A stretch of DNA of 64,000 bases, taken from the NCBI GenBank assembly GCA_016786585.1, contig JAEUUI010000030.1, positions 1 through 64,000 on the forward strand. Direction: 5' to 3'. Of the stretch, positions 4,302 to 21,117 are shown one piece after another (position 1 is the first letter of the stretch; each line of letters starts with the position of its first letter). Both the position numbers and the translations under genes were made by a program. The notes under the pieces are model-generated. The model saw only the letters and a program-made list of their open reading frames with translations. It had not been told where the DNA came from and searched no databases. The DNA is from Cyclobacteriaceae bacterium (GTDB lineage: Bacteria > Bacteroidota > Bacteroidia > Cytophagales > Cyclobacteriaceae).

Positions 4302-5402
4302 ATGACTACCTTAAATTTCATCATCTGGAACGCCAGTCCGGAAATCTTTACGCTTCCCATCCCCTTTATCGATAAAGAATTAACACTTCGCTGGTACGGA
4401 CTTTTCTTTGCGCTTGGCTTTCTCATCAGTCAGCAAATCCTGTACTATATCTTCAAAAAAGAAGGTAAACCCGAAAAAGACGTGGATACCCTGACCATCT
4501 ACATGGTGGTGGCAACTGTTATTGGAGCAAGGCTCGGTCATGTATTGTTTTATGAACCCGAAAAATACCTTGCTCATCCAATCGATATCCTGAAAGTTTG
4601 GGAAGGTGGTTTGGCAAGTCATGGTGGTGCGATCGGGATTTTGTTTGCTTTGTGGTTATACAGTCGCAAGAAATTCGCTGGCCAAAATTATTTGCAGACG
4701 CTGGACCGCATCGTAATACTTGTTGCATTAACAGGCGCGCTGATTCGTTTCGGAAACCTGATGAATTCAGAGATCATCGGAAAGCCAACCGGATCGGACT
4801 ATGGAGTTGTATTTGCGCGGAACGTAACGGAAGTACTAACAAGTGACGGAACCGTTTCACATGTTCAATATGTAAAAAACGATTCTCTGCCTGCACAAGG
4901 TGACTATCAGCCGATTAAAATCTTGCTGGAGTTTGATAAAAACAACAATAACGACTACTCGACCATTGACGACTATTTGCGCAGCTCGGTTGCAACAGAA
5001 CTACGTGGTAACGGATACGTGGGTGAGCACATCTATCAAACCGGCCCGCTGGACTATAAGCTTGCACAGGATGAAAGCGGAACGTTCTACGCGATCATTA
5101 ACACGTATGCCATTCCGCGTCATCCGGGACAATTGTATGAGTCTATTTCATGCCTCTTCCTTTTTGCGTTCCTTCTGTGGCTATGGTTCAAACATCAACG
5201 CAATCTGCCCGAAGGCCGCCTGTTTGGAATTTTCCTGATCGTTTGTTTTGGTCTGCGGATTGTGTGGGAATTCTTCAAAGAAAACCAGGTTGATTTTGAA
5301 AACGGAATGGCATTGAACATGGGTCAATTGCTGAGTATTCCGCTTGTACTGGCAGGTTTCTACTTCCTGATCCGTTCATACCGTAAGCCACAGCCTGAAT
5401 AA
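4302..5402 (+). CDS. lgt: Prolipoprotein diacylglyceryl transferase
   Basis: This inner-membrane enzyme moves diacylglycerol from phosphatidylglycerol to the lipobox cysteine of prelipoproteins, the first step of lipoprotein maturation. Multiple membrane segments are present. The conserved blocks are EGGLASHGGAIG, the signature region RFGNLMNSEIIGKP and PRHPGQLYE. At 366 residues it is longer than the usual 260-300. The extra length is a hydrophilic, Asn/Asp-rich stretch (roughly residues 175-265) between the signature and PRHPGQLYE, probably in an extracytoplasmic loop. Confidence 0.95.
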   Translation: MTTLNFIIWNASPEIFTLPIPFIDKELTLRWYGLFFALGFLISQQILYYIFKKEGKPEKDVDTLTIYMVVATVIGARLGHVLFYEPEKYLAHPIDILKVWEGGLASHGGAIGILFALWLYSRKKFAGQNYLQTLDRIVILVALTGALIRFGNLMNSEIIGKPTGSDYGVVFARNVTEVLTSDGTVSHVQYVKNDSLPAQGDYQPIKILLEFDKNNNNDYSTIDDYLRSSVATELRGNGYVGEHIYQTGPLDYKLAQDESGTFYAIINTYAIPRHPGQLYESISCLFLFAFLLWLWFKHQRNLPEGRLFGIFLIVCFGLRIVWEFFKENQVDFENGMALNMGQLLSIPLVLAGFYFLIRSYRKPQPE

Positions 5403-6920: not shown

Positions 6921-7643
6921 GTGAGACTTTACTTTCTCTGTGCCGTACTATTTTGTTTCACTTCAACACTTGCACAAAGTGTATCCCCCCAGATTGGTTC
7001 TCGGGCAAATGGCATCGGCTATGCATCGGCCGCACTTGTTGATGCCTGGGGATTATTCAATAACCCGGCCGCAACTGCTCAGCAGAAACACATTACCACA
7101 GGCTTTACATACGATTTGCGTCCCTCGATTTCAGGAGCAAACAGAACCGCTGCGGTAGTTAACATTCCGGTTGGCATTGGTGTGACAGGCATAGGTGCAT
7201 ACCGGTTTGGCGACGACTTGTACAACGAACACATTTTGTCAATCGGATTTGCCAACAAGTTTGGACTCGCTTCATTAGGCGCGCAGGTAAACTATTTACA
7301 ATACACAGCTACCGGCTTCGGCAATAAAGGAGTTGTCAGCATAAACTTGGGCGGTATAGCCGAACTCACACCCCAGCTTTCCGTGGGCGCTTATGTTGTG
7401 AATGTTAATCAGCCGGCGTTAAGCAGTGACGAAAAACTTCCTACCCGACTCGTGGCAGGTGTCGCGTTTAAACCCATTGAAAAAATATTTATTGCGATTG
7501 AGGTTGACAAAGATCTTGACTTCGATCCGTTATGGAAATTGGGGTTGGAGTACTTCGTTCACAAAAAATTTGCAGTCCGAACTGGATATAACTTAAATCC
7601 AAACACCGGCTTTTTCGGCCTTGGATTTAAGACGCGAAAATAA
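6921..7643 (+). CDS. PorV/PorQ-like outer-membrane protein
   Basis: This 240-residue protein has a cleavable signal peptide (MRLYFLCAVLFCFTSTLAQ) and glycine-rich beta-strand sequence throughout. Near the N-terminus, GSRANGIGYASAALVDAWGL and the following FNNPAAT match the conserved opening of PorV/PorQ-type barrels (usually G..MGGA..A..D......NPA). Members of this family help type IX secretion at the outer membrane in some Bacteroidota. This one is shorter than PorV and may be only a structural relative. It starts with GTG, 38 bp after the POTRA protein. Confidence 0.65.
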   Translation: MRLYFLCAVLFCFTSTLAQSVSPQIGSRANGIGYASAALVDAWGLFNNPAATAQQKHITTGFTYDLRPSISGANRTAAVVNIPVGIGVTGIGAYRFGDDLYNEHILSIGFANKFGLASLGAQVNYLQYTATGFGNKGVVSINLGGIAELTPQLSVGAYVVNVNQPALSSDEKLPTRLVAGVAFKPIEKIFIAIEVDKDLDFDPLWKLGLEYFVHKKFAVRTGYNLNPNTGFFGLGFKTRK

Positions 7644-12520: not shown

Positions 12521-15500
12521 CTAGTGAGCAATTACCGGACTATCATCGGTTCTAAAACCAGAATCAAGCATTCCTGAATCGGCTGTTCCAGACTTTCTTT
12601 CATTCAACTTCTTACCGAAGATACGCGCCTTCAGTTTAGTTGTGAGCAGGTACAATACCGGCACCAACACCAGGGTAAGGAATGTACCGAAGATCAACCC
12701 GAAGATCATTGTCCACGACAAAGGTCCCCAGAAGGCAACGTTATCGCCTCCGAAGAAAATATGCGGATTGAATTCTGTAAACATCGTTACGAAGTCGATG
12801 TTCAATCCAACTGCCAGCGGAATCAATCCGATGGTTGCAGCGATGGTTGTCAGCAACACAGGCGTCATACGCGTTTTGGCAGCCTCAATGATTGCATCGT
12901 ACAGCGGCACATTTTGCGAAACCAGCAGGTCCGTGAATTCCACCAACAGAATACCGTTACGCACTACAAGACCGGCAAGCGCCATGATACCTACACCCGT
13001 CATGATGATTGAGATTTCCATTCTGAACAACGAGAATCCAATCAACACCCCGATAATACTAAACAGGATTTCTGAAAGAATAATGACCGGCTTTCCAATT
13101 GAGTTGAATTGGGTTACCAGGATCATAAAGATTAACGCGAATGCCAGGCTGAACGCAATCGCCAGGAATCTCATAGTCTCTGCCTGCTCTTCCTGTTCAC
13201 CCGTCATTTTAATTTGCACTCCGTCAGGTGTTTTAAATTCATTCAATTTAGCCTGAATCTGTGCCACCACTTCGTTCGGATTGTAATCGCCGGTTACGTT
13301 CGATGAAATCGTTACTACGCGCTTTTGGTCAATTCTTCGAATACCTGCGTAGCTATTGGAGTAATCGATTTTTGCTACAGCTGACAAAGGTACGTGACGA
13401 ACCTGGCCGCCTGATGCCATATCGCGATAGGTAATTGGCATGTTCATCAGTGCGTTGATGTCGTTACGCTGATTTTGTGCGATACGAAGTTCAATCGGAT
13501 AGTCATCATTCTCATCGCGGAATTTAGAAACCTCCGCACCATACACGGCTGTGTTTATTGCGAAACCGATCTGGCGGGTTGAAATTCCCTCACGGTTAGC
13601 TTTCTCACGATCAATGGTTACAATAATCTCGGGTTTGTTGGCATGAAAATCAGATTTCAATTCTTCAACCCCTGGAATCTGCATCGCATCGAGGTAGCGC
13701 TTAACATCTTCGGATGTTTTCGCGAGCACGTCAAAGTCATCGGCAGCAATCTCAATGTTGACAGGCTTACCGGTTGGCGGCCCATTGGCCTCCTGGTTTA
13801 CGGAAATCTCCGCCCCCTTAATACCTTTAACAGCTTCACGCATTTTGTCGAGATACGGTTTAGTTGACTGGCCGTTTCGCTCTGCGAATTTTACAAAGGC
13901 CACCTGAACCTTTCCAAGATGAGGCTGCGCCTGTGTACCGCGTTCGAACTGATCTTCACTTGCTCCAATCGCCACGTTTGAAATAACCGATTCAACAACC
14001 GGATTATCTTTTCCAAGCACGTCCATTACACGGCTTTCAACTACCGAAGTAATCGAATCTGTTACACGCTGATCCGTTCCAATCGGCATACGAATGTATG
14101 CATATGCAAAGTTCGGATCACCGCTCGGGAAAAACACAACCGGAGGCTTCATGATTGCTGTGAACACCAGCGAGAAAATGAATAACACAATCACGCCTAC
14201 AAAAACTCCAATCGGTCTGTAACCGGTTAAACACCAGGTTACCAGTCTGCGATAACCCTCCTGAACCTTAGGCCAGGTTGACGTCTGGAACGTAGAGATT
14301 ACACCGGTAAGTACAAAGTGATACAGTACGTATAACAGGTAAATGAATACTACGAAGTTACCTAAACCGAAATTGATCAAATAGGATACAATAGCAACAC
14401 TGGCAAAGACAATACTTGATACTTTGAAACCTCGCGAGAATTTAGGCTTCTCATCATGATCATGATCGTGCGGAGTCATAAAGTCGGCCGCAAATACCGG
14501 GTTGATGATATAGGCTACCAGCAATGACGCCAGCAGGGCTACGATCAGCGTAATTGGCAGATACATCATAAATTTACCAATCACACCAGGCCAGAAGGCT
14601 AATGGAATGAATGGCGCCAGCACCACCATGGTTCCGGAGAACACCGGCATAAATACTTCGCCTGCAGCAATTTTAGCCGCCTTGCGAATAGGAACTTTAC
14701 CGTTATCAAACACGCGGTGCGTGTTTTCAATTACCACGATCGCGTCATCCACCACAATCCCCAGCGCGAGCAGGAACGAGAACAAGGTCATCATGTTCAG
14801 CGTAAAGCCGATACCCGGGAATACCAGGAACGCAATGAAACTGGAGATCGGAACAGAAAGACCTACGAAAATTGCGTTGGTAACACCCATGAAGAACATG
14901 AGGATGATTGTTACCAGAATAAAACCAATGATGATCGTGTTAATCAGGTCATGCAAGGTCACGCGTGTATTCTCCGATTGGTCGGCCGTTACGGTAACAC
15001 CCAGTCCTTTTGGAAGAATGTTTTGCTCATAATCGGCAATGATTGCACGAACGCCATCAGAAGCTTCGATCAGGTTTTCTCCGTTACGCTTCACGATGTT
15101 GAGCGTGATTACGTTCTTTTTATCCAGACGGGCGAAACTCTCCTGTTCTTTATGTGAATCGATAACTTCGGCAACATCTTTCAGATAAACTTTTCCGCCC
15201 GTTGTTGAGCCGATCACCGTATTACCAATACCTTCTGCGTTTGCATATTCACCTGAAATGCTCAGCGAGCGTTTCATTCCGCCAACGGCCACCTGGCCGC
15301 CCGGCACGATAACGTTTTCCGAACTGATCGCACCGCGGATATCATCGAGGCTTACGCCTGCCAATGCCGCTTTATACAGATCCACGTTGATCTGCACTTC
15401 GCGATCAAGCGCACCAACAATATCTACCCTGCGGATTTCTTTCAGCGCCTCAAACCTGTCCTGCATATCTTCTGCATACCGCTTAATGGTTTGCAGATCA

Positions 15501-15964
15501 TAGTCACCGGAAAGGTTCACAAACATGATCGGCATCTCAGAAAAGTCAATATCCTGAACGACCGGATCATCCTGCAGATCGGTTGGCAAATCGGGCTTCG
15601 CGCGATCGACCGCGTCCTTCACGTCCCGCTTGGCGGACGTGACATCGATCTCCGCTTCAAACTCAATGATTACGTTCGAATAGTCCTGAACGGAATTAGA
15701 AGAAATCTTCTTCACTCCGGAAATTGATTTAACCTGTTTCTCAATATGCTTGGTGATCAGGTTTTCAACGTCTTTCGGAGACGCGCCCGGATAAAGTGTA
15801 CCCACGAATATCTGCGGGAAAACTACTTCCGGGAAGTTCTCTTTCGGAAGTGAGAAGTAGGTTAAAACACCGCCCAGCGTAATGATTACTACCGCAACGT
15901 AAATCGCAATCTTATTATCAATGGCCCAACTGGTGGGCTTAAATTCTTTTTCTATGTCTTGCAT
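12521..15964 (-). CDS. RND efflux transporter, inner-membrane pump
   Basis: This is the proton-driven pump subunit of a tripartite efflux system (AcrB/HAE1-like), 1147 residues. It has the usual two halves, each with one TM helix, a large periplasmic domain and further TM helices. Asp406-Asp407 in GIVVDDAIVVIEN are the TM4 proton-relay pair. It is about 100 residues longer than AcrB. After TM6 comes an acidic/His cluster (HDHDHDE, about 499-505), then two additional hydrophobic segments (about 515-556). The Asp pair and lack of CusA metal residues by eye favour organic substrates. It is the last gene of the tetR-tolC-MFP-RND operon. Confidence 0.95.
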   Translation of the reverse strand: MQDIEKEFKPTSWAIDNKIAIYVAVVIITLGGVLTYFSLPKENFPEVVFPQIFVGTLYPGASPKDVENLITKHIEKQVKSISGVKKISSNSVQDYSNVIIEFEAEIDVTSAKRDVKDAVDRAKPDLPTDLQDDPVVQDIDFSEMPIMFVNLSGDYDLQTIKRYAEDMQDRFEALKEIRRVDIVGALDREVQINVDLYKAALAGVSLDDIRGAISSENVIVPGGQVAVGGMKRSLSISGEYANAEGIGNTVIGSTTGGKVYLKDVAEVIDSHKEQESFARLDKKNVITLNIVKRNGENLIEASDGVRAIIADYEQNILPKGLGVTVTADQSENTRVTLHDLINTIIIGFILVTIILMFFMGVTNAIFVGLSVPISSFIAFLVFPGIGFTLNMMTLFSFLLALGIVVDDAIVVIENTHRVFDNGKVPIRKAAKIAAGEVFMPVFSGTMVVLAPFIPLAFWPGVIGKFMMYLPITLIVALLASLLVAYIINPVFAADFMTPHDHDHDEKPKFSRGFKVSSIVFASVAIVSYLINFGLGNFVVFIYLLYVLYHFVLTGVISTFQTSTWPKVQEGYRRLVTWCLTGYRPIGVFVGVIVLFIFSLVFTAIMKPPVVFFPSGDPNFAYAYIRMPIGTDQRVTDSITSVVESRVMDVLGKDNPVVESVISNVAIGASEDQFERGTQAQPHLGKVQVAFVKFAERNGQSTKPYLDKMREAVKGIKGAEISVNQEANGPPTGKPVNIEIAADDFDVLAKTSEDVKRYLDAMQIPGVEELKSDFHANKPEIIVTIDREKANREGISTRQIGFAINTAVYGAEVSKFRDENDDYPIELRIAQNQRNDINALMNMPITYRDMASGGQVRHVPLSAVAKIDYSNSYAGIRRIDQKRVVTISSNVTGDYNPNEVVAQIQAKLNEFKTPDGVQIKMTGEQEEQAETMRFLAIAFSLAFALIFMILVTQFNSIGKPVIILSEILFSIIGVLIGFSLFRMEISIIMTGVGIMALAGLVVRNGILLVEFTDLLVSQNVPLYDAIIEAAKTRMTPVLLTTIAATIGLIPLAVGLNIDFVTMFTEFNPHIFFGGDNVAFWGPLSWTMIFGLIFGTFLTLVLVPVLYLLTTKLKARIFGKKLNERKSGTADSGMLDSGFRTDDSPVIAH

Positions 15965-15990: not shown

Positions 15991-17106
15991 TTAGATTTTG
16001 ATATTCTCACCGTCACTCAGGCTTTGATAACCTACCGTTACCACTTTATCGCCTTTATTCAAACCTTTAACTTCAGCGCCATCGCCAAACACGCCAACCA
16101 CCTCTACTACCTTCTTGCGGGCAACGGTGTTTTTGCCGTTTGTTTCAGCGATGTAAACGATCTTCTCGTTATTAACAGTTTGCACGAGGTTAACCGGCAC
16201 AACAATCGCGTTAGGCTCAGTGTGATAGATAACTTTTATCACGGCTGTCATGTTCGGGCGCAGTGCAGGATCACTTGGTAGTTTCACTTCGATCGGAAAT
16301 GTGCGCGACAGTAAATCAATTGTTTTACCAACAAACGTTACGGTTGCCTTATACGGCTTGGCTAATTCCGCGATTGTGACCTCAACTTTATCTCCTTTTT
16401 TAACACCGGAAATAAACGCTTCGGAAATCCCCGCAACCAACTTCAGGTCAGATGTATTCACAATGTGTACAGCAGGCTGCGTAGGGCCTGCACCTTCGCC
16501 AACTTTCACGTTAATCTTGTCAATCGTTCCGCTTACAGGTGCTTTGATCCGAGCCATATCGATTTGCTCTTTTAACGCAGCTATTTGCTTCTCCAGGGTT
16601 TCTTTATTGGTTTGTGCCTGTAAGAACTGAACCTCTGTTCCGATTTTCTGGTCCCACAGATTTTTCTGACGTTCGTACACGGATGTGGCAAGTTTAAGCT
16701 GCGACTCCAAACCCTGAAGATTGCTTACCAGAACGGAATTGTCGATTTGCGCAAGAACCTGTCCTTTGGAAACACTTTGCCCTTCGGTAACATATACTGC
16801 CGTAACAACACCCTGTGCTTTCGGGGTAACAAGAATATTATACTCAGCCTCTACATGACCTTGTGTTTGCACATAGTGGTTGAACGCTCGCGGATTCAGC
16901 TCAAGCACATCAACTTCTTTCAGTTTTAAAGAATCCTTTTTAACTAACGTTGAGTCCTTTTCAAGTTCTGCAATCTTCGTATCAAGCGCAGCACGTTCTT
17001 TTTTCAGTTTTTCAAGCTCCGCTTTTTTATCTCCGCCTCCGCAAGCAGCTACCAGAACCGCCAGCGAAATTCCCAAGATGTAATGTTTGTATGTAATTGA
17101 TTTCAT
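15991..17106 (-). CDS. RND efflux membrane-fusion lipoprotein
   Basis: This periplasmic adaptor links the inner-membrane pump to the outer-membrane channel. I chose the internal ATG at 17106 (371 residues) because it gives a proper lipoprotein signal, MKSITYKHYILGISLAVLVAAC, with Cys at 22. Then come a coiled-coil stretch rich in K/E (about 28-60), the lipoyl/barrel-sandwich halves (VTPKAQGVVTAVYVTEGQSV and IKAPVSGTIDKINVKVGEG) and the beta-barrel region. The reading frame extends 20 codons further upstream without conserved features. The gap to the RND gene is 26 bp. Confidence 0.93.
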   Translation of the reverse strand: MKSITYKHYILGISLAVLVAACGGGDKKAELEKLKKERAALDTKIAELEKDSTLVKKDSLKLKEVDVLELNPRAFNHYVQTQGHVEAEYNILVTPKAQGVVTAVYVTEGQSVSKGQVLAQIDNSVLVSNLQGLESQLKLATSVYERQKNLWDQKIGTEVQFLQAQTNKETLEKQIAALKEQIDMARIKAPVSGTIDKINVKVGEGAGPTQPAVHIVNTSDLKLVAGISEAFISGVKKGDKVEVTIAELAKPYKATVTFVGKTIDLLSRTFPIEVKLPSDPALRPNMTAVIKVIYHTEPNAIVVPVNLVQTVNNEKIVYIAETNGKNTVARKKVVEVVGVFGDGAEVKGLNKGDKVVTVGYQSLSDGENIKI

Positions 17107-17131
17107 GTGAATGTATTTCAGGTTGGTTGAT

Positions 17132-18583
17132 TTATTTCTTTTCTGATTGCGGAAGTAGTTTTCCATACGCTTTATCCAAATCTACTTTTGCAATAGCTGC
17201 TGCATACAGAGCGTTGTAGTAGTTGGTCTGAGCCTGGCGGAGGTCGTCTTCTGCTTCAACAACTTCCAGGTTAGAGCCTACACCCTGCTCGTATTTGATT
17301 TTGGTAACGCGCGCTACTTTCGTTGCGAGTTCAATATTTTGCTCCTGCGCATGCAAATCCTGAACAGAATTCTGATAGGTAGTTGCAGCCTGAGCGATTT
17401 GCAAGTCAATATTCGACTTCATCATGGTAAACTGATTATTGATTTTTTGCAAACTAAGCTTCTCCTGCTGCCATTGGTGATGATTTTGGAGACCTGTAAA
17501 AATTGGCATCGATAACCGGATTCCGTAGTTAGAATAGTTATACCATTTATCAGGACCCACGCCACCCGCATCGCTGATATCAGATTCAGTCTTAAACAGT
17601 CCGGCAATCTTCGCAGACTGAGTTGAATATCCGTAGTTTAAAAACGCATTTAATTGTGGCAATGAGGCCGCACGTTTGTTACGAATGTTTAGCTCCTGAA
17701 GTCTTTTGCTGGCTTCGAGCAACTGATAATCCGGGCGTGCCTTATAATCCCAATCGTTGCTGTATGACGAGAGATCAACATTAACCTGAACGTCTTGAAT
17801 TGTTCCGACAACCTGCAATGCCTGATCCATCGGATAATTCATTTGAAACTTCAGAACTTCAATTCCGAGCTCATTTAACTTCAAAAAGTTATCGCGTTGA
17901 ACGATCAGGTTATTGAGCGCTACCTGGATTCTGTCAGCATCAATGCTTTCCGCAAATCCGTTTTGATAAAGGGCTTTGGTATTCCGCAACAGCGTATCCA
18001 GACGACCGATATTGCTGGTGAAAAGGTCGGCACGTTCCCGGTTAATCAACACAAGATAGAAGGCTTTCGTGACTGCTTCAATCGTCTGCTCTTTTGTCTG
18101 ATTGGTTGTCTTGTAGGCAAGCTCTTTATATGCTTGTGACGCCTGCAGGCCTACAATATAAGATCCGTTAAAGATGATTTGATTAACAGAAAGACCAACA
18201 TCACCGCTGCTTTTCAATTGAAAAAAATTCTCAGCAGCAACCACATCACCCGTTTTGATTCCAGGAACCCCGCTAAGATCAATGAAGCCGCCAGAACCGG
18301 TATAGGTTGTAAAAAATCTTGGCAATTTTTCGTTATGAACAACCGATGCACTCGCAGTTACCTGCGGAAGCCCGATGCCCACGGTTTCACGAACCTTCGA
18401 CTCCGCTATCTGCTCGTCAAGTTTTGCATTTTTCGTGAGTACACCGTTCTCTAATGCATAATCTATACACTGCTGCAGTGTAAACGCCTGGCCGGATGCA
18501 GTTGACTGATCCTGCGCGAAGGCATGCTGCGCGGAAAGTACCCCCGCTACTATTACTACTATCAGATATAATCTTTTTATCAT
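17132..18583 (-). CDS. TolC-family outer-membrane efflux channel
   Basis: This 483-residue protein is the trimeric outer-membrane exit duct of the efflux system. It has a signal peptide ending AFAQ near residue 24, then two repeats of long amphipathic helices, with QQCIDYALENG near the start and the family-typical YEQGVGSNLEVVEAEDDL in the second half. Its start codon overlaps the stop of the tetR-type gene by four bases (ATGA), strong evidence for one transcript and coupled translation. The MFP and RND genes follow at once. Confidence 0.94.
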   Translation of the reverse strand: MIKRLYLIVVIVAGVLSAQHAFAQDQSTASGQAFTLQQCIDYALENGVLTKNAKLDEQIAESKVRETVGIGLPQVTASASVVHNEKLPRFFTTYTGSGGFIDLSGVPGIKTGDVVAAENFFQLKSSGDVGLSVNQIIFNGSYIVGLQASQAYKELAYKTTNQTKEQTIEAVTKAFYLVLINRERADLFTSNIGRLDTLLRNTKALYQNGFAESIDADRIQVALNNLIVQRDNFLKLNELGIEVLKFQMNYPMDQALQVVGTIQDVQVNVDLSSYSNDWDYKARPDYQLLEASKRLQELNIRNKRAASLPQLNAFLNYGYSTQSAKIAGLFKTESDISDAGGVGPDKWYNYSNYGIRLSMPIFTGLQNHHQWQQEKLSLQKINNQFTMMKSNIDLQIAQAATTYQNSVQDLHAQEQNIELATKVARVTKIKYEQGVGSNLEVVEAEDDLRQAQTNYYNALYAAAIAKVDLDKAYGKLLPQSEKK

Positions 18584-19215
18584 AAAATGGTTGATGGTTG
18601 TTGGTTGTGTTCTTTGTATTTCAAATAAAGTTTTCTTCCTTTTTCAGTAACCAGTCCGAATACGAAGTGATCGAATATCTGGCTCTGTACCTCTACGATG
18701 TTGAACTTCTCTCGTGGAAAAATATCCTGATTGAACGCCATCTGCACAAATTCCACCCGAAGAATGCTCATAATCTCTTTGTTCACGGGGCGCATGTAGC
18801 CTTGTTCGATTCCCGCATCCAGGTTTTGAACAACCTGATCACGAATGAACTTGTTCTTAAAGTCAACCCACAAGTTCCAGGCTTTTATATGGAACTTCTG
18901 TAAATCAAAGAGCATGGTCGGATTTACCTCCTCCATGCTTTTCTTCATCCACAGGGAAACGCGGGCCAGCTCTTCCACCGGGTTATCGCAGCCCTGCCGG
19001 ATGTCTTCACATTGCTTATAATTCTTTTCGAGTAGTTGGCGTGTTACACTTTCAACAAGGTCATCCTTGTCGGCAAAATGCTGATAGAGTGTTTTCTTGG
19101 ACACCGACAAATGCCGGGCGATATCATCCATCGAAATGCTGCGTACTCCGTACCGCCTGAACAGTTCCTCCGCCCCTGTAACGATCTTATCTTTTATGTC
19201 TGTTTCTTCAATCAT
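18580..19215 (-). CDS. TetR/AcrR-family regulator of the efflux operon
   Basis: This 211-residue transcriptional regulator has a TetR helix-turn-helix at about 12-58 (GVRSISMDDIARHLSVSKKT then LYQHFADKDDLV). The C-terminal ligand-binding and dimer domain is divergent, as usual. It is the first gene of the operon it most likely represses. A perfect 11-bp inverted repeat lies just upstream, across the predicted promoter, which suggests self-repression and induction by a pump substrate. The inducer cannot be told from sequence. Confidence 0.92.
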   Translation of the reverse strand: MIEETDIKDKIVTGAEELFRRYGVRSISMDDIARHLSVSKKTLYQHFADKDDLVESVTRQLLEKNYKQCEDIRQGCDNPVEELARVSLWMKKSMEEVNPTMLFDLQKFHIKAWNLWVDFKNKFIRDQVVQNLDAGIEQGYMRPVNKEIMSILRVEFVQMAFNQDIFPREKFNIVEVQSQIFDHFVFGLVTEKGRKLYLKYKEHNQQPSTIL

Positions 19216-19220
19216 GGCAG

Positions 19221-19250
19221 CAAAACTATGGAAACTTTTAAGATTGCAAA
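19221..19250 (-). promoter_or_regulatory. Promoter of the tetR-tolC-MFP-RND operon
   Basis: On the minus strand, TTTG (19250-19247) and TAGTTTTG (19228-19221) are separated by 18 bases, matching the Bacteroidota TTTG / TAnnTTTG promoter. The -7 box ends five bases before the regulator ATG, so the leader would be very short or absent. Confidence 0.65.
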
Positions 19251-19258
19251 AGTTTCCA
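19229..19258. promoter_or_regulatory. Candidate TetR operator
   Basis: TGGAAACTTTT (19229-19239) and AAAAGTTTCCA (19248-19258) form a perfect 11-bp inverted repeat with an 8-bp spacer. It covers the -33 box and the spacer of the promoter, so a bound dimer would block RNA polymerase. A further half-site GTTTCC lies at 19261-19266. Symmetry, size and position fit a TetR-family operator. Confidence 0.7.
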
Positions 19259-19339
19259 ACGTTTCCCTGAACGCATAAAACGGCTCAGGGTTGGGGTTTT
19301 AAGAATATTTTTTTGTGAATTTTTCCCGGGATTTCGACT

Positions 19340-19678
19340 TCAACCGTTTGCTGAAGGCTTTTCCTGGTCAGGTCTCGGACACCACTTTTCCCGCATCCTG
19401 CGTTTGAGCCGGTCGCGATCCTCTGGTGTCATACTCTCCCACCGGTTCTTCCAGTACGGTCGCCAGGGTCCCCGGTGATGATGACCGCCTTTGCCGACAC
19501 TCCAGAATAAAATCTTCGTCAGGAGCAGCAAGCCGATCGCCTGCGAAAAGGTCACTACCGGACCATTAAACAACACCGGCACAAGCCAGTTCCAGAGTAA
19601 CATGGTAACCGTTCCGAACAAGGCAATCATTACTGCCACGAAAACGATTCCTTTTAATATCCACCAACCGCGTTTCAT
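19340..19678 (-). CDS. Small two-helix membrane protein with basic Trp/His-rich tail
   Basis: This is a 112-residue protein I cannot assign. Two hydrophobic helices (about 7-34 and 42-60) are followed by a charged tail containing GGHHHRGPWRPYWKNRW and then MTPEDRDRLKRRMREKW. It starts 34 bp after the ECF sigma factor gene on the same strand, so the two are probably cotranscribed. The position would suit a membrane regulator of the sigma factor, but no known anti-sigma domain is visible. The basic tail is probably cytoplasmic. Confidence 0.65.
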   Translation of the reverse strand: MKRGWWILKGIVFVAVMIALFGTVTMLLWNWLVPVLFNGPVVTFSQAIGLLLLTKILFWSVGKGGHHHRGPWRPYWKNRWESMTPEDRDRLKRRMREKWCPRPDQEKPSANG

Positions 19679-19712: not shown

Positions 19713-20276
19713 TTATTTGATAATGTCATCGTAAAAACTTTGCAGGCGTTTGCGAAGTGCCAGAATTGCATACCGTTTGCGGGAGAGTAATGTATTGATC
19801 GATACACCGGTTTCCTCGGCAATTTCACGGAAGCTCCGTTCTTCAATTTCATTCTGGATGAAAATTTCCCGCTGATCAGCCGGAAGTTCTTCGAGCGCAT
19901 CAGTAATCTCATCCCAAATCGCCTCGCGCAACAGCGTTGACTCAGGTGTATTATCGAAATCGGGAAGAATGTCCTGCAACGTTAGTGTTGCATCATCTTC
20001 GCTGCCCGTTACCAATTCGAAATCGGTTTTCTTAGGCCTTGCAGCATCCCTTCTGTACCGGTCGATAATCTTGTTGCGCGCCACACTGTACAGCCAGGAT
20101 GTTACCCGGTCGAGCGATTCAATGGTTTCAAAACCAGCAACAAACTGGTAGAATACATCCTGCAGGATATCTTCCGCCTCTTCGGATGACGACACCCGGT
20201 TGCGGATAAACCCCAACAGTTTGTCTTTCTCCTTCAGGAATGTGTTCTGCTTTATTTCTTGCATGGCAAGGTCCAT
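19713..20276 (-). CDS. ECF-type RNA polymerase sigma factor
   Basis: This extracytoplasmic-function sigma factor is ~187 residues from the ATG at 20276 (a second ATG lies at 20264). Region 2 includes SSEEAEDILQDVFYQF and the helix VTSWLYSVARNKIIDRYRR that binds the -10 element. Region 4 (LPADQREIFIQNEIEERSF followed by REIAEETGVSINT) holds the -35-binding helix-turn-helix. The frame stays open ~55 codons upstream, but that extension is unlike sigma region 1 and runs toward the divergent gene. Targets are unknown; the downstream membrane protein is a likely partner. Confidence 0.9.
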   Translation of the reverse strand: MDLAMQEIKQNTFLKEKDKLLGFIRNRVSSSEEAEDILQDVFYQFVAGFETIESLDRVTSWLYSVARNKIIDRYRRDAARPKKTDFELVTGSEDDATLTLQDILPDFDNTPESTLLREAIWDEITDALEELPADQREIFIQNEIEERSFREIAEETGVSINTLLSRKRYAILALRKRLQSFYDDIIK

Positions 20277-20421
20277 CGCCTGCTTGTTTTGACATGATAG
20301 TCGGCAGGATTTGGGAAATATTGTGACAAAGGTGAAAAAATCTGCGGGGAGGGAAAATTTTAAGGCGATCCGAACTTTATCTATGAAAACAGCATCTAAA
20401 TCAGCACATAACCATTCCTTT

Positions 20422-21117
20422 ATGAAACGACTCTTGCTAACCATCTATCTGTTAACCATTGTATTAGCCAGTCAGGCCCAGGAAATCCGGCCGGAACATT
20501 TTATCGAAGTTACCGGCACGGCCGAGCTGGAGATAGTACCGAATGAAATTTACCTTCTCGTGAGGCTCAAGGAATTTGAGGAAGGAAGGGTAAAAACAAT
20601 ACTCGAAACGATAGACAAATCATTTCTGAATGCGCTGAAGGAAGCTGGCATTGATACCAAAAACCTGGAGCTTGCCGATGCAGGCCTTTTGCTTGGCGGA
20701 AGAAGAAGAGACCGAAACGTGTTCCGGGAGAAAACCTATCAACTCAAGTTGTCGGCTGCAGCTGAAGTGGAAAAGTTCTTAAGTAAGATTGAAGATGTTA
20801 AGGTAGACTTTGTTGACATTGTTCGTATCAGTCACTCCGAACTCGAAAAGATTGAACTGGCCTTAAAAATCAAAGCGCTACAGGCGGCCAAAGTAAAGGC
20901 GGATGCATTGTTGAAAGGTGTTGGCGCAGAGTTAGGTAAGGCAATCAAAGTTTATGAGATTGAAATATATTCGACAGACGTGCTCCTTAGAGGAAAAATC
21001 AACCCGAAAATGAAATTTGAATCCAATTGGGGTGTTGTATCAGAACCCGAGTCGGCATTGGAGTTTAGAAAATTCAAACTTCAGGCAAAAATATCCGCCC
21101 AATTCGAAATAAAATAG
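20422..21117 (+). CDS. SIMPL-domain (DUF541) secreted protein
   Basis: This 231-residue exported protein has a signal peptide from ATG 20422 (MKRLLLTIYLLTIVLASQAQ). A SIMPL/DUF541 domain follows, opening with IEVTGTAELEIVPNEIYL, the usual G.A......PD.. pattern, then LEAGID-like text (KEAGIDTKNLEL). Relatives are periplasmic or outer-membrane-associated, sometimes in oligomeric rings, and are linked to oxidative stress in a few species. An earlier ATG at 20383 would add 13 polar residues before the signal. It is divergent from the ECF sigma gene. Confidence 0.82.
   Translation: MKRLLLTIYLLTIVLASQAQEIRPEHFIEVTGTAELEIVPNEIYLLVRLKEFEEGRVKTILETIDKSFLNALKEAGIDTKNLELADAGLLLGGRRRDRNVFREKTYQLKLSAAAEVEKFLSKIEDVKVDFVDIVRISHSELEKIELALKIKALQAAKVKADALLKGVGAELGKAIKVYEIEIYSTDVLLRGKINPKMKFESNWGVVSEPESALEFRKFKLQAKISAQFEIK

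Follow-up and report, generated by a model that had tools for sequence, protein, structure and literature searches.

Control of efflux genes by TetR-type repressors is a known kind of regulation. QacR, a multidrug-efflux repressor with a 28-bp long palindromic operator, binds as two dimers on one palindrome; compared with QacR, the locus described here adds outer half-sites in one lineage, one of them overlapping the -7 promoter box, and the QacR recognition helix differs from that of the TetR protein considered here. Closer at hand is the bmeR5-bmeABC5 system of Bacteroides fragilis, also of this phylum, in which, as at the present locus, an RND efflux operon has a TetR repressor for a neighbor. 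BmeR5 is reported to bind between bmeR5 and bmeC5, and expression of the pump to rise when the repressor is deleted (PMC4790292). The Flavobacterium johnsoniae operon FJOH_RS06575 (TetR)-tolC-adaptor-permease shares both the gene order and the phylum, and a 33-bp deletion in its tolC gene is reported to lower antibiotic susceptibility (PMC10197871). A more distant parallel is MAB_4384 of Mycobacterium abscessus, a TetR repressor of an RND-type pump for which gel shifts identified a 27-bp palindrome; unlike the operator described here, that site is described with 13-nt arms, a 1-nt spacer, and divergent genes, and it belongs to another phylum with another promoter type (PMC5895659). In a literature search of open-licence PMC papers, no description of the present operator was recognized. 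What is new is the depth of its conservation, its layout of four half-sites, and the pairing of recognition helix with operator.

The efflux operon and the promoter of its repressor gene

The window, which is the whole stretch of DNA that was analyzed (64,000 nucleotides), carries on its minus strand a tetR-type gene followed by genes for an outer membrane efflux protein (OEP), an HlyD-type adaptor, and an RND permease (Table 1). The predicted repressor has a TetR_N helix-turn-helix (PF00440) at residues 11-57, and its PDB profile matches include TetR proteins across residues 10-149 (KstR2). The tetR and OEP genes overlap by 4 nt, and the genes for HlyD and then the RND permease lie close behind. 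Related loci were taken as the best 80 of 399 stretches from named genomes, mostly Cyclobacteriaceae and other Cytophagales, found with search patterns that included SKKTLYQH; this set shares species with the set of genus genomes, and the two are not independent. Upstream sequence is readable at 79 of the 80 loci, as L130 begins inside the gene. OEP and HlyD genes follow tetR in 80/80 loci and an RND gene follows in 77/80, the three exceptions (L062, L091, and L103) being those with the shortest downstream stretches. Upstream on the same strand lie a sigma-70-like gene (19713-20444) and a gene for a 112-aa protein (19340-19678) that gave no Pfam or NCBIfam match; these neighbors are also found upstream in 66 and 67 of the 80 relatives, respectively.

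Table 1. Coordinates of the operator, promoter, and operon features in the window
Feature	Coordinates	Strand	Basis and conservation
Operator inner arm, gene-proximal (GTTTCC-type half-site as read on the minus strand)	19229-19239	none assigned	Read directly; kept in 79/79 loci
Operator inner arm, gene-distal (GGAAAC-type half-site as read on the minus strand)	19248-19258	none assigned	Read directly; kept in 79/79 loci
-7 promoter box TAGTTTTG	19221-19228	minus	Read directly; exact at its place in 52/79 loci
-33 promoter box TTTG	19247-19250	minus	18 nt before -7 box; far arm TTTG 57/79, mirror arm 19/79
Outer half-site GGAAAC	19261-19266 (AAAC part 19261-19264)	minus	3 nt outside far arm; AAAC at gap 3 in 73/79
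Outer half-site GTTT	19223-19226	minus	3 nt outside near arm, within -7 box; exact in 70/79
CGTT element upstream of outer half-site	19270-19273	minus	Per-base 62-66 of 79
tetR-type repressor gene, 211 aa, recognition helix SKKTLY	18580-19215	minus	TetR_N E 8.2e-14; orthologues in 16/17 genus genomes
Outer membrane efflux protein (OEP, TolC type)	17132-18583	minus	OEP E 1.1e-42; 80/80 loci
HlyD-type periplasmic adaptor, start codon uncertain	15991-17166	minus	HlyD_D23 E 2e-22; RND_mfp above NCBIfam cut-off
RND permease (AcrB type)	12521-15964	minus	ACR_tran E 1.4e-193

The inverted repeat at 19229-19258, TGGAAACTTTT-N8-AAAAGTTTCCA, is perfect as read from the letters of the window, with 11-nt arms separated by 8 nt as the first-pass annotation had described, and it extends imperfectly to 22-nt arms (19218-19239 and 19248-19269) that are 82% complementary. 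The span 19221-19258 is made up of the -7 box and the inverted repeat, and the minus strand of the region reads CGTT-CAG-GGAAAC-GTT-GGAAACTTTT-GCAATCTT-AAAAGTTTCC-A-TAGTTTTG-CTGCC-ATG (one further G before GGAAAC is counted in CAG). Inverted repeats that are perfect over 11 nt or more per arm, with a spacer of 0 to 20 nt, number two in the 64-kb window; five first-order Markov shuffles gave 0, 1, 0, 0, and 1, and when the 124-bp gap was itself shuffled 3000 times, a repeat of that kind appeared in 19 cases. Taken alone, the palindrome is only moderately improbable, and the strong evidence lies in its conservation. The second repeat in the window (11-bp arms, spacer of at most 20) is found at 7592-7631, CTTAAATCCAA-N18-TTGGATTTAAG.

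The promoter proposed on the minus strand, with a TTTG-N18 spacing and a -7 box ending 5 nt before the tetR ATG, can be read directly in the order TTTG (19250-19247), N18, TAGTTTTG (19228-19221), CTGCC, and ATG (19215-19213). The element TAGTTTTG matches the TAnnTTTG form of the -7 box of the Bacteroidota sigma-A factor (sigma-ABfr), and that form occupies the same place in 57/79 loci. The proposal that the -33 box forms part of an operator arm held for its TTT, which falls within the far arm, but not for its G, which is the first base of the spacer. The -33 box itself is less secure: the -33 signal is described as small in a study of F. johnsoniae (PMC6847099), and TTTG, which is present in the window, does not occur in the far arm of 22 of the 79 relatives. 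TTTG is found in the far arm in 57 loci and in the mirror arm in 19, an asymmetry that fits a -33 box and that a plain palindrome would not give.

The first-pass annotation had also predicted a nearly leaderless transcript, which agrees with the pattern among relatives, as the first in-frame ATG lies 13-19 nt past the operator in 65/79 loci; in the remaining 14, the leader is longer or no in-frame ATG stands nearby. Probable promoters of F. johnsoniae are reported to have 4-5 nt between the -7 box and the start (PMC6847099), and with this spacing the tetR leader would be 0-1 nt. For a repressor mRNA, leaderlessness that persists among relatives would stand out against the published Flavobacterium and Bacteroides figures, which put leaders longer than 10 nt at 87% in F. 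johnsoniae (PMC6847099), leaderless mRNAs at 5.5% in F. psychrophilum (PMC9723704), and 5' UTRs shorter than 10 nt at ~3.7% in B. thetaiotaomicron (PMC7366714). Near-leaderless transcripts may nevertheless be common in this lineage, as three of the five TAnnTTTG boxes before open reading frames in the window, that of tetR included, end 4-5 nt before the start. The further TAnnTTTG boxes at 4302 and 55327, both on the plus strand, end 5 and 4 nt before open reading frame starts. An argument from avoidance of G in the -7 box, which F. johnsoniae data suggested and which made the G of TAGTTTTG odd, was dropped for this organism because two of the five boxes in the window, again including that of tetR, have G there.

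Conservation of the inner arms and the outer half-sites

A strong tetR orthologue is present in 16 of the 17 genus genomes, with G014 giving a weak match only, and an element ending in ATAGTTTTG accompanies 16/16 of these orthologues. Across the wider set of relatives, a core of the form GGAAACTTT-N10/11-AAAGTTTCC lies upstream of tetR in 79/79 readable loci, with no mismatch in 46, one in 31, and two in 2; its spacer is 10 nt in 74 loci and 11 nt in 5. Among 395 shuffles serving as control, none had fewer than 4 mismatches and 4 reached that number. A more distant set of 40 hand-picked homologues at 37-48% identity, of which 37 are not among the 80 loci, carries the core at spacer 10 in 40/40 cases and always at a length of 28 bp. 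Mismatches in this set numbered 0, 1, 2, 3, and 4 in 11, 13, 11, 3, and 2 loci, so that 38/40 have at most 3, and the two loci with 4 mismatches stand at a level that shuffles also reach (4/395).

This constancy bears on the possibility that the repeat acts as an RNA hairpin, either a terminator of the upstream genes or an attenuator, rather than as an operator. Its form, a perfect inverted repeat that separates two co-directional gene groups, speaks for such a role, but both the letters and the 28-bp length are conserved beyond the need of pairing alone, the arms are AT rich with no U run after the repeat on the minus strand, and the repeat would lie outside the tetR mRNA if the -7 box is right. 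We consider a hairpin role scarcely credible.

In the window's family the operator is, judging from its conserved letters, longer than the repeat first annotated, with outer half-sites flanking the inner arms. The outer GGAAAC is a 9-bp direct repeat of the far arm. Outer boxes at other gaps (0-12) amounted to one exact copy overall in the 79 loci (AAAC, gap 12), and in the distant set the outer AAAC is found in 21/40 loci and an exact outer GTTT in 25/40. The outer GTTT lies within TAGTTTTG, and the -7 box of the window's family is best read as doubling as a half-site. Where TAnnTTTG is missing from its place, the GT of the outer box is retained in 22/22 loci of the first set and in 28/31 distant loci (3 of the 40 distant loci duplicate loci of the first set), although an old promoter that decays slowly could also leave such letters behind. 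A universal operator of four half-sites was rejected, because loci of other families have at most one of the two outer boxes as a rule: the right box is present in 9/9 and the left in 0/9 loci of set f5, the left in 18/37 and the right in 1/37 of set f7/f4, and the left in 0/20 and the right in 3/20 of the set from other classes. The partial or complete absence of outer boxes in other families points to the four-box form as a lineage elaboration of a two-box core.

The same loci speak to whether only a promoter has been conserved, the palindrome then arising from symmetrical promoter sequence and recent common ancestry. The conservation of the -7 box in the family, which is near that of the arms, is what this explanation would lead one to expect; the core nevertheless persists in the 22/79 and 31/40 loci that have no TAnnTTTG at its place. 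Loci outside the class add to this point: TAnnTTTG occurs within 16 nt downstream in 2/20 of them, yet the operator word (itself the search key) and tetR are present. Conservation of the promoter by itself is thus a very unlikely explanation.

The operator word across the phylum

The word GGAAACT-N14-AGTTTCC, searched as DNA only in 395 genomes of the phylum, was found in 85 and was absent from the other 310, whereas a reversed-word control was found in 10. One site per genome was examined for the 84 genomes besides that of the window, and a TetR was present by profile at 81 of these sites; none was detected by profile at L232, L240, and L261. The operator lies upstream of the TetR gene and in the same orientation for 82/82 TetRs (one locus has two), at a median of 30 nt; its distance to the start of the TetR domain is at most 120 nt in 73/82 and 121-800 nt in 9/82. 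All 82 TetRs at word sites carry the recognition-helix motif SKKTxY. In TetR itself, the residues at the position of K-K-T contact bases. Weaker TetR matches within the genus comprise 10 with other helices and 4 with SKKT, and these four (L018-L021, one of them a short frame) have no recognizable operator, which indicates that the helix motif is not sufficient.

This partnership weighs against a reading in which some other regulator, for example one tied to the upstream sigma-factor/112-aa pair, uses the palindrome and tetR merely lies downstream of it. That pair is indeed syntenic in many relatives (sigma gene 66/80, 112-aa gene 67/80), but at least 13/80 loci have no detected pair, some of them at contig ends, and the operator is retained wherever these loci have upstream sequence. 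The neighbor that stays the same from family to family is tetR (81/84), while a sigma-type match was obtained at only 4/29 loci, and we regard a different regulator as highly improbable.

What follows the switch varies. Matches to the OEP of the window were found in 54/62 loci within the class and in 0/22 outside it, where the next gene by Pfam in five tested loci was HlyD-like in two and OEP in three; the TetR-operator pair therefore precedes efflux operons of different make. In those loci of the 121-800 nt group that were inspected (L210, L211, L214, L217, L222, and L223), a yceI gene (Pfam YceI) lies between operator and tetR. L209, L210, L211, L223, and other f7 loci have yceI in between, and in many cases the operator is doubled in tandem at a distance of 45-51 bp. 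A protein of lipid-binding type thus seems to have joined the regulon in the f7 lineage. In L234, L235, and L236, all from one genus outside the class, TTGACA-N17-TAAATT was seen by eye to overlap the operator word with an ATG directly after, an arrangement that would place the operator over an ordinary-looking sigma-70 promoter.

Turnover of pump genes was seen within the genus itself, where RND proteins are either 70-92% or 42-44% identical to that of the window, forming two types behind the same switch. In G003 the second type lies behind tetR, and the first type is encoded elsewhere with an HlyD gene, at a locus with no tetR or OEP match and no operator nearby. Between the window and G004 (G004:C45, L225), DNA identity is 87-93% over 18601-19500, the part with tetR and its operator; between the start of the OEP gene and ~12300 it is only 59-77%, and beyond that it rises again. 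This profile suggests that pump genes have been exchanged or are fast diverging under a kept switch.

A TetR tree of 67 rows, with f7 thinned to 14 and the bootstrap not settled, groups the f5, f7, and f8 TetRs by family and leaves 29/63 inner branches open. Paralogues without SKKT stand on very long branches, and the operator-less SKKT paralogues fall inside the class set. The tree agrees with descent inside the class but does not establish one origin for all classes, given the open branches, the very long ones, and the position of those operator-less paralogues. It is tentatively possible, with the case standing somewhat short of even, that efflux operons have been under one ancestral TetR(S-K-K-T-x-Y)/GGAAACT pair from an early point in the history of the phylum, and that this pair survived pump swaps (two RND types in one genus, and HlyD- or OEP-led operons outside the class) as well as the replacement of one promoter type by another around it; in the window's Cytophagales family, the -7 element would have come to serve as a fourth half-site.

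Probable autorepression of the efflux operon

The palindromic operator lies over the promoter of the repressor's own gene, as sequence and conservation indicate, and the repressor gene adjoins pump genes, both being traits of an autorepressed local efflux repressor in the manner of AcrR, TtgR, and BmeR. The association of this operator-in-promoter with the tetR-OEP-HlyD-RND operon, proposed from the window alone, is strongly supported by comparison (core 79/79, OEP and HlyD 80/80, tetR 81/84). A genome search for other targets of the repeat did not support a wider regulon in this species: GGAAAC-N10-22-GTTTCC occurs at 5 places against 2 for the control, with N16 only at the tetR site, and the 28-bp core with at most 3 mismatches occurs at 2 places against 3 for the control. 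No matches to the window's efflux-operon or sigma proteins were found in the loci of the four other places or of the 2-mismatch place. A single such site in the genome is expected of a local autorepressor.

The efflux operon is very probably autorepressed by its own TetR through this operator, and repression, which the first-pass annotation had predicted to be tight, could be partial. The segment 19221-19266 on the minus strand would serve as both operator and core promoter of the tetR-OEP-HlyD-RND operon, with TetR binding the GGAAAC/GTTTCC half-sites spread over the -33/-7 region, and more than one dimer is suggested by the 28-bp palindrome together with the outer boxes. Bound TetR would exclude RNA polymerase and so repress its own gene and the downstream pump, and it would leave the DNA in response to a ligand, either a substrate of the pump or a stress compound. 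The transcript would begin at the ATG or 1 nt upstream.

To our knowledge, TetR operators are usually hard to predict from sequence. Here a search with nothing but the 14-base word ended at a TetR gene for 81/84 sites, so that in many genomes of the phylum the repressor, its site, and the pump it likely regulates can be assigned in one step, and the specificity of helix for operator becomes testable by mutation. The segment could also serve as a combined promoter and operator part in a phylum whose promoters follow rules of their own, and it gives a route to asking which signal induces these widespread efflux operons. Its recurrence in distantly related members of the phylum makes the switch appear to be an ancient and widely used means of turning efflux on and off.
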